This document shows positions 35,337 through 40,207 of a stretch of DNA of 64,000 nt, in pieces. The notes under the pieces were generated by a model. The model did not search any database. It worked only from the letters and a program-made list of their open reading frames with translations, and was not told the DNA's origin. How positions within the stretch are numbered: position 1 is the stretch's first letter; every line of letters begins with the position of its first letter. This DNA comes from Sedimentisphaera salicampi. Its GTDB lineage: Bacteria > Planctomycetota > Phycisphaerae > Sedimentisphaerales > Sedimentisphaeraceae. The stretch covers positions 3,086,995 through 3,150,994 of the forward strand of contig NZ_CP021023.1 of assembly GCF_002117005.1 (NCBI RefSeq), given 5' to 3'. A program made the position numbers and the translations under genes.

Positions 35337-35492
35337 GACACTCTAAAACCTTTCTACCTTTTTATTACACTTATTTTTTGCTTTGCAGGGTAATACTTGC
35401 AATTTTTCGCTTAATTTTTTTCAGTTTTTGTTATAATCTGCCCCGTCGTTTTGAGTCTTAAATAAAAAATTAAACACAAGAGCAATCTATCT

Positions 35493-36872
35493 ATGAATAC
35501 AAAAAGGCTTCTCACCTCATGCTTCGGGCTGGGCTTTTCACCTTTCGTCCCGGGCACAGTCGGCTCCCTTTTCCCCTGCGCCTTATTTATCATAATAGCA
35601 GCTTTCACGCGCCAGCTTTGGCAGAGCCAGCTTGCAGTCGCCGGCCTTACTGTCTTTTTTGCATGGGGGACTATAGCATTCTCCAAATATGCAATCGAGT
35701 TCGCCGGCAGGGAAGACCCGTCCGAGGTGGTATCGGATGAAGTCGCAGGGCAGGGGCTCGCTCTGCTGATTGGCTCTTTTCTCCCTGCATTCTCAGCATA
35801 CCCATTGGTGAGCATAGGCATTCTGTTCGTACTGTTTCGCTTTTTCGATATAACGAAAATCTCGCCTGCAAACCGCCTCGAGAGGCTTCCGGGCGGGCAG
35901 GGCATCCTCCTTGATGACATTATGGCAGGGCTCTACGCCGGCATCGTTTTCGCTGCGGCCTCGCTTTTCGGCTGGGTGCAGCCTGTGGGCGAGCTTCTAA
36001 ACCCATACCTTCTGCCCATCTGCAGCTACCTCTCCGGCCTGTGCGGGTCTATTGGCCTGGGCGTCGTGCAGGGACTAACAGAATTCCTCCCTGTTTCCTC
36101 TTCAGGCCATCTGGTGATGTTCGAAACATTCATCCCCAGCCTCGACCCTGAGAGCAAAGATATGCTCCTTTTCGATCTCGCCGTACACGTGGGAACAGTG
36201 TTTTCGATTCTCGTTGTATTCCGCAAACAAATCGTATTGTTCGCCCGCCATTTCTTCAAATTTGACCATTCTGGACACAACCCAATACAGCTCTACAAAA
36301 AGAATTTCGCTTGGCACTTCGCTTTCTGCGCAATAATCACAACCGCCACTACAATGCTCATTTACAAGCTCTTCGAAGAGCCCTTTGAGGCATCGCGAAA
36401 GCTCTGGGTGGTGTGTGTTATGTGGCTCATAACCGCAGCCCTGCTATACATCACAGACAAAAAAACACGCTCCTCGCTTAAGCTCCGCGAATTCGGGATT
36501 ATAGGCGCGGTGGTGATTGGCTTAGCCCAGTCCGGAGCCATTATCCCGGGAATCTCACGCAGCGGCGCCACGATCTGCGCAGCAATCCTCTACGGCCTCC
36601 ACCGCAAATGGGCGGTAGAATACAGCTTTCTGATTGCAATGCCCGCCATACTCGGCGGCGCACTTCTCACCGCTCTTAAGCACAAGGAGCTTTTCGGCGC
36701 CGGCATACTAACTCCCGGCGTGATTATATCAGGTATGCTCGCATCCTTCCTTACCGGCATTATCGCACTCAGGCTCCTGATAAAAGCAAGCAGAAATCGA
36801 CAGCTAAAATACTTCAGCATATACTGCATATTCATTTCAGCAGTTTCGTTTATATACATCCTGCTGAATTAG
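35493..36872 (+). CDS. PgpA-UppP fusion: phosphatidylglycerophosphatase A plus undecaprenyl-diphosphatase
   Basis: A 459-aa polytopic protein joining two lipid phosphatases. Residues 1 to about 165 match PgpA: FSPFVPGTVGSLFP, DPSEVVSDEVAGQ and LFRFFDITK, with the family Asp/Glu residues. Residues from about 185 match UppP/BacA: VVQGLTEFLPVSSSGHLV and the second motif PGISRSGATI. Both catalytic sets look intact. PgpA removes phosphate from PGP to make phosphatidylglycerol; UppP recycles undecaprenyl pyrophosphate for wall and polysaccharide synthesis. The open frame runs through the junction without a stop or an internal ribosome site that I can see, so one polypeptide is expected. Confidence 0.9.
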   Translation: MNTKRLLTSCFGLGFSPFVPGTVGSLFPCALFIIIAAFTRQLWQSQLAVAGLTVFFAWGTIAFSKYAIEFAGREDPSEVVSDEVAGQGLALLIGSFLPAFSAYPLVSIGILFVLFRFFDITKISPANRLERLPGGQGILLDDIMAGLYAGIVFAAASLFGWVQPVGELLNPYLLPICSYLSGLCGSIGLGVVQGLTEFLPVSSSGHLVMFETFIPSLDPESKDMLLFDLAVHVGTVFSILVVFRKQIVLFARHFFKFDHSGHNPIQLYKKNFAWHFAFCAIITTATTMLIYKLFEEPFEASRKLWVVCVMWLITAALLYITDKKTRSSLKLREFGIIGAVVIGLAQSGAIIPGISRSGATICAAILYGLHRKWAVEYSFLIAMPAILGGALLTALKHKELFGAGILTPGVIISGMLASFLTGIIALRLLIKASRNRQLKYFSIYCIFISAVSFIYILLN

Positions 36873-39355: not shown

Positions 39356-40207
39356 TTGCTTTGGTTTAATGATTTGAAAAAAGTTAATTACATATACAAG
39401 AAAAATGTAGATTGGTCTTTATTGAATTATGGCTTTTCTATTCCTCTCAGCGTTAAGAAAGGCTTCTTAGGCTCAGTCGGATTCAATTTGAAAAGAGGTC
39501 AGAAGACCGATATAAAAGTGATAATTGATGGCCAGATTTTTTCAGCCAAAATAGTAAATCAGTATTTTGACCAAAAGAAATATCCTAACCATTCGGATAT
39601 TATTCAAGTAAGGTTTTCTTCCGAATTGGTACGCTTGCTAAGAGAAATCTTTGATTATTCTTACAGGTTATTGAAACATTCCAGAGAGACTAAGCCAAAA
39701 CCAGAAGGAAGCAGTCAATTGTTGACCAGAAATGAATATCTTGTTGTTTATGACACAGTAAAGCCGGACACTTTTTTGTTTGATTTTGTCAGCAACAAAG
39801 ACTCTGAAACTGAGATTGGCTGTTTAAATTCAGCAAATGAACTGGAATATGAAAGCGAACTCTTCCCTTCATTAGACAAGAACGCAGATTTAATAGAGAA
39901 GCAAGTTAAAACCAAAATAAGGAGAGTTGACAGGAGAATTGCAATTCGTCTTAAAGAACTATATGGTTTCAAATGCCAAATTTGCGGTTCAAATTTTGGG
40001 GAAAGATACGGAGCTAAAATCGTAGAGTCGCATCATATAATTCCGTTTGTAAAATCACTGAATAATAACCCTGAAAATCAAATAATCTTATGTCCTAATC
40101 ATCACAGAATACTGCATAATGTTGAAGCTGATTTTTCGAGAAATAATTTGGCGTTCACATTCAGAAATGGTTTTGTTGAAAAAATTAGATTAAACTATCA
40201 TCTCTGA
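39356..40207 (+). CDS. HNH endonuclease-domain protein
   Basis: A predicted protein of up to 283 aa with a C-terminal HNH nuclease domain: FKCQICGSNFGERYG, SHHIIPF and ILCPNHHRILHN, giving the two zinc-binding Cys pairs and catalytic His. The N-terminal 200 residues match nothing I know and could be a DNA-recognition domain as in stand-alone restriction endonucleases. There is no in-frame ATG; a stop codon lies directly before TTG 39356, and another TTG is at 39374. The start is therefore uncertain and the N-terminus may be truncated. The gene is AT-rich. No methylase is adjacent. Confidence 0.72.
   Translation: MLWFNDLKKVNYIYKKNVDWSLLNYGFSIPLSVKKGFLGSVGFNLKRGQKTDIKVIIDGQIFSAKIVNQYFDQKKYPNHSDIIQVRFSSELVRLLREIFDYSYRLLKHSRETKPKPEGSSQLLTRNEYLVVYDTVKPDTFLFDFVSNKDSETEIGCLNSANELEYESELFPSLDKNADLIEKQVKTKIRRVDRRIAIRLKELYGFKCQICGSNFGERYGAKIVESHHIIPFVKSLNNNPENQIILCPNHHRILHNVEADFSRNNLAFTFRNGFVEKIRLNYHL

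Follow-up and report, generated by a model that had tools for sequence, protein, structure and literature searches.

The fused gene and its genomic setting

At positions 35493..36872 (forward strand) of the window, the whole 64,000-nucleotide stretch of the Sedimentisphaera salicampi genome analyzed here, a single open frame runs from ATG to stop with no internal stop codon and encodes a protein of 459 amino acids. Exactly two Pfam families match this protein: PgpA (PF04608), at 118.1 bits against a gathering cut-off of 28, covering residues 7-155 (35511..35957), and BacA (PF02673; the UppP family), at 219.5 bits against a cut-off of 33.4, covering residues 187-450 (36051..36842) and positions 2-256 of the 257 in the profile. 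Between them lies a linker of residues 159-183 (35967..36041) that contains no lysine or arginine and is predicted, from a structural model and loop charge counts, to be on the periplasmic side. A phmmer search of solved structures returned UppP entries only, all matching the second half of the protein, and both Pfam families are present in each of the 12 fused proteins of our first alignment (A1). The initial annotation had read this frame as PgpA and UppP joined without interruption and had proposed a domain search of the translation; with both domains complete and nothing else detected, the gene is confirmed as a true PgpA-UppP fusion.

Upstream, a terminator-like stem-loop (35383..35402, forward strand) separates the fused gene from an Hpt gene; it is a consensus match only, of a kind found 4 times in the region against 1.9 expected. 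The hexamer TATAAT at 35432..35437 (forward strand), picked out by eye, is a possible -10 element that the promoter scan did not list and for which no -35 partner passed that scan. The flanking genes with Pfam names (QueG-like, Hpt, UPF0047 and sulfatase) include none for lipid or wall metabolism, and on that ground an operon shared with the neighbors was rejected. Rfam gave no match in the window. Further downstream, an ORF at 39356-40207 carries an HNH endonuclease domain in its C-terminal part.

The genome is assembled as one contig of 3,192,293 bases and is 99.89% complete. It contains one match to PF04608 and one to PF02673, both of which are the fused gene; the search for separate pgpA and uppP genes, put forward in the initial annotation as a check, found neither, and a decaying gene with back-up copies elsewhere is ruled out. 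PAP2 (PF01569) has no match in the genome, the fused protein included, and DSPc, to which a PTPMT1-like PGP phosphatase of Rhodopirellula belongs, has none in the whole-genome search. One CDP-alcohol phosphatidyltransferase is present and is the candidate PgsA. The fused gene is thus the only candidate found for the dephosphorylation of undecaprenyl-diphosphate (C55-PP) among the BacA and PAP2 families searched. For the formation of phosphatidylglycerol (PG) it is likewise the sole candidate among the PgpA, PAP2 and DSPc families searched; a PgpC-type HAD phosphatase could provide a second source of PG.

Within the family, PAP2 is absent from the one-contig genomes G000, G001 and G002 and present in G003 and G004, and across the order it is matched in 14 of the 28 genomes with a fusion and in none of the other 14; replacement of PAP2 by the fusion was accordingly rejected as a general rule. 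Four nearly complete genomes of another family (G013, G017, G021 and G033; f6) have PgpA and neither BacA nor a listed PAP2 match.

Conserved residues and predicted membrane topology of the two halves

The N-terminal half shares 32% identity over 154 columns with E. coli PgpA (b0418), which is a stand-alone protein of 172 amino acids. Replacement of D86, D93, E94 or R121 of the E. coli enzyme by alanine is reported to abolish or strongly lower activity (PMC13148334). These residues are kept and align with D75, D82, E83 and R116 of the window protein, the putative active site, which are retained in all 29 fused PgpA halves aligned. In contrast to these positions, the redox cysteine C75 of E. 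coli PgpA corresponds to S64 here, and cysteine occurs at this position in none of the 29 fused sequences. The half scores 60.1 bits against the NCBIfam PgpA equivalog PRK11068, below its cut-off of 226.

A PgpA half whose main substrate is not PGP but either newly made C55-PP on the cytosolic side of the membrane or soluble sugar phosphates, as reported for E. coli PgpA, appears very unlikely. The cytosolic dephosphorylation of new C55-PP, described as unresolved in PMC5861054, would give such an enzyme a role. However, H. pylori PgpA is reported to have no significant C55-PP activity and not to rescue strain BWTsbacA (PMC6748449), the redox cysteine of the E. coli protein is missing from every fused sequence, and the single PgsA candidate suggests that PGP is made in this organism.

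In the C-terminal half, residues 189-454 align with E. coli BacA/UppP (b3057; PDB 5oon, 6cb2), which has no N-terminal PgpA extension, at 29% identity. All ten residues mutated in the E. coli protein (E21, S26, S27, H30, Q164, S173, R174, S175, R189 and S196; PMC4641660) are retained, as E197, S202, S203, H206, Q346, S355, R356, S357, R371 and S378, respectively. Among them, the counterparts of the catalytic Ser27, Glu21 and Arg174 (S203, E197 and R356) occur in every one of the 28 fused BacA halves. The earlier reading that the key motifs of both halves are intact therefore holds for every mapped residue with mutant data.

Two further positions of E. coli BacA are changed in the window protein, E17 to Q193 and R261 to C445, of which R261 is reported to be needed in E. 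coli (PMC5861054). Judging from the alignments, the two changes are linked and characterize an entire BacA subfamily, and they do not reflect damage to the gene: Q193 and C445 go together with H232 across the subfamily, where the pairing of H232 with E. coli Q53 is our own reading of the E. coli BacA alignment. At positions 193/232/445, the 71 BacA sequences from the genome-search loci and E. coli comprise 52 with Q-H-C, 6 with Q-H-L and 13 with E-Q-R, with no mixtures, and 11 further sequences from the class add 3 with Q-H-L and 8 with E-Q-R. The 79 BacA sequences of a contig scan are all Q-H-x, a uniformity to be read in light of the selection of Gln at the first position by that scan. Q and H are shared by all 28 fusions of the order, of which 27 have C and one has L at the third position. 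BacA proteins can accordingly be sorted by this linked triplet into two types, one with Glu17/Gln53/Arg261 as in E. coli and one with Gln and His together with Cys, Leu or another uncharged residue; both types are found beside pgpA within one order.

Against the NCBIfam UppP equivalog TIGR00753, the BacA half scores 163.9 bits, below the cut-off of 217.5, where E. coli BacA scores 366.8. The same cut-off is missed by two other fusions of the order (181.2 and 168.6), by a fusion of separate origin described below (G760; 212.4), and by the BacA proteins of an unfused planctomycete relative (L018; 186), a member of the Bacteroidota (L121; 194.9) and one of the Bacillota (L139; 215), and it is only narrowly passed by another Bacteroidota BacA (220.5) and by that of Methanobrevibacter (220.7). 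Because the Pfam cut-offs are passed and the UppP equivalog cut-off is missed by relatives as well, we regard the family membership of both halves as secure and their functions as predicted from it.

An AlphaFold2 model built from 99 sequences has a mean pLDDT of 93.6 and a pTM of 0.83, a value that alone does not fix the packing of the two halves. The modelled helices of the PgpA half (residues 20-38, 42-71, 81-95, 104-121 and 135-158) fit the five membrane helices of E. coli PgpA, the pocket of which is predicted to be cytosolic (PMC13148334), and a further long helix spans residues 162-198, uniting the linker with the first helix of BacA. In Foldseek comparisons, the BacA half matches E. 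coli BacA structures 6fmt (E 7e-9, TM 0.82) and 5oon (E 1e-8, TM 0.80), with TM normalised to the target. Positive-inside counts of lysine and arginine, taken as sums of loop means over 28 fused proteins with loops assigned by hand on the basis of the model and of the topology published for E. coli, are 7.7 in the predicted cytosolic versus 0.7 in the periplasmic loops of the PgpA half (the linker included) and 14.8 versus 4.0 in those of the BacA half. According to crystal structures, the two termini of BacA lie in the periplasm (PMC5852022, PMC5861054). A PgpA half that starts in the cytosol and crosses the membrane five times would end on the periplasmic side, where BacA must begin, so that the join is topologically sound and the PgpA and BacA sites are predicted to face opposite sides of the membrane.

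Distribution and at least two origins of the fusion

To survey the architecture, a profile of 12 fused proteins was searched against 161 genomes of the order, 141 of which gave a match. A full-length fusion without a stop is present in 28 of the 161 genomes and in all five of the family, and identity to the window protein ranges from 43 to 81% in the 12-protein alignment. Within the order, the kind of survey proposed in the initial annotation thus finds a conserved fusion, and a frameshift hiding a stop between the domains is ruled out by its occurrence in so many genomes. With the same profile, no further PgpA or BacA match was obtained in 26 of the 28 genomes; the two exceptions are G008, with a second, short fragment, and G048, where PgpA also occurs as a separate gene. 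The distance between motifs of the two domains is 37-46 residues in 27 fused proteins, the remaining one having missed the motif pattern.

Comparison with the sister species gives dN/dS values of 0.17 (PgpA half), 0.19 (linker) and 0.12 (BacA half), with dS about 0.75-0.9; both halves are under purifying selection. These values bear on the proposition that one half alone is catalytic and the other serves as a membrane anchor or is a relic, to which we give a small chance. The scores of both halves below the equivalog cut-offs would fit it, as would genome G114 (locus L195), where PgpA is whole and the BacA half ends after about 26 residues, inside a contig. The low dN/dS of both halves, the catalytic residues kept in every fused half aligned and the lack of any other BacA or PAP2 in the S. 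salicampi genome all argue against it. As to G114 itself, its nearest PgpA relatives, G117 and G115, are fused, and it looks as if the BacA half had been lost there or the locus misassembled.

BacA (PF02673) is found in only 56 of the 161 genomes of the order. These comprise 28 with the fusion, 17 with a same-strand pair in which pgpA directly precedes bacA, 2 in which the two genes are convergent neighbors and 3 in which they lie apart; fragments in six genomes (G067, G103, G114, G126, G158 and G159) were kept out of this count, so that tandem pairs make up 17 of the 50 layouts judged. The gap within a pair is mostly 0-50 bases, the exceptions being G012 (205 bases) and G037 and G075, where the genes overlap as called. 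In G050 (gap 0) and G007 (gap 3) the two genes are in the same frame and could be joined by one error, which is what a sequencing or assembly artefact would require; given a fusion present in 28 genomes of the order with a linker of even length, the chance that the gene is such an artefact is negligible.

Tandem pairs also occur beyond the order, in G191 and G252 (gap 15), in G215 (overlap as called) and, with gaps of 3-36 bases, in G649, G778, G780, G800, G848, G750 and G836. Each tandem pair seen has pgpA as its first gene, and such a pgpA-bacA pair is the likely precursor of the fusion. In G034 (locus L040), two pgpA frames of equal length and score lie one behind the other, separated by about 350 bases. 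The fusion as a trait of all bacteria was rejected: fused or adjacent pgpA and bacA genes occur in none of 50 genomes from contig-scan loci, a set hand-picked from 79 loci of a scan that selected the BacA Gln motif, which includes a few planctomycetes and is not a random sample. That scan was dominated by BacA-only matches and contained no fused genes.

The search of the class covered 397 genomes, of which at least 380 matched; full-length fusions beyond the order include at least G596, G604 and G612 (family f108) and G760 (family f117), and a fusion in G741 is truncated by the contig end. Among 392 genomes drawn from the phylum, at least 355 had a match, and the fused genes among the matches listed are those of G000, G001, G002 and G009, all members of the order. 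Two candidates for additional fusions, a long frame of 473 amino acids in G028 and the first 250 residues of G760, were set aside, since each appears to be high-GC sequence read out of frame ahead of the likely start.

The BacA half of G760 is of the E-Q-R type and sits in the tree among the tandem pairs of its own family, joining G800 and G848 with support of 97/82, and the split between the two BacA types is supported at 100/100. In AU tests on a tree from which nine rows of order fusions and one row at a contig edge had been removed, a single origin of all fusions was rejected (p 0.0058), a clade of the order and f108 fusions was weakly rejected (p 0.033), and a clade of the order fusions alone was not rejected (p 0.377). 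Another tree places the 28 order fusions on one side of a branch with low support (54/35). Given the position of G760 and the rejection of the one-clade constraint, the fusion arose at least twice, the second time in another family of the class and with a different BacA subtype. The PgpA tree is poorly resolved and leaves 41 of its 85 branches open; fused and solo PgpA proteins are mixed in it, as would fit a BacA half lost repeatedly, and our conclusions do not rest on this tree.

Probable function of the fused protein

We favor, with a probability of about 0.78, a two-headed membrane enzyme derived from a pgpA-bacA gene pair, in which each half would carry out its textbook reaction on opposite faces of the membrane and the two would be supplied in a fixed 1:1 ratio. 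The N-terminal PgpA half, with its site at the cytosolic face, would convert PG-phosphate to PG; its five helices would span the membrane so that its end exits on the periplasmic side, at the start of BacA; and the C-terminal BacA half, with a pocket open to the periplasm, would dephosphorylate undecaprenyl-diphosphate and regenerate the carrier lipid C55-P. Both activities, the topology and co-production as the benefit are what we infer from the families, the model and the gene pairs. Counting against this explanation are the Q/H/C subtype of the BacA half in place of E17/Q53/R261, given the reported need for R261 in E. coli, and the scores of both halves below the NCBIfam equivalog cut-offs.

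The initial annotation further held that the fusion ties PG synthesis to recycling of the carrier lipid. The tie stands in that both enzymes are made together; any tie beyond co-production would be hypothetical. The two sites are predicted on opposite faces, an arrangement that argues against hand-over of a substrate between them and for either joint production or long-range influence. The latter would take the form of physical coupling, in which the substrate load, PG level or dimer state of one half would govern how fast the other works and keep membrane and wall growth in step, a reading we consider unlikely. The recurrence of pgpA upstream of bacA with two BacA subtypes and of the fusion itself, the narrow range of inter-domain distances and the linker modelled as one helix into BacA helix 1 are all compatible with coupling, but the sites are predicted on opposite faces, dN/dS shows no tighter constraint on the linker than on the domains, PgpA occurs without BacA in most genomes of the order, and co-production accounts for the same data. 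Also unlikely is a coordinating device, i.e. one polypeptide across both leaflets through which cytosolic PG synthesis and periplasmic C55-P recycling influence each other and envelope growth is held in register; if this were true, in species with no other C55-PP candidate one gene would be the control point of both envelope layers.

The earlier statement that no bifunctional enzyme of this kind has been described needs to be narrowed. Our search of the open-access literature, with subscription journals and domain databases outside its scope, found neither a PgpA-UppP fusion in print nor, in the same literature, a measured activity of any fused protein, and to that extent the joining of the PgpA and BacA families is undescribed. 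The pair of reactions is not: E. coli PgpB and H. pylori HupA, both of the PAP2 family, are reported to dephosphorylate both PGP and C55-PP (PMC7413402, PMC6748449). In those enzymes, as would be the case here, a single polypeptide supplies PG and C55-P; they do so with one periplasmic site, whereas the fused protein combines two unrelated enzymes with separate sites and predicted activities. What is new is therefore a recurrent architecture of two known enzymes and not a new function.

If the predicted activities are correct, two envelope reactions that are spread over several redundant enzymes in E. coli reside here in a single gene, and the three one-contig genomes of the family have no alternative BacA or PAP2. 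The recurrent gene pairing, together with at least two independent fusions, suggests a functional link between the synthesis of PG and the recycling of the carrier lipid in these bacteria.
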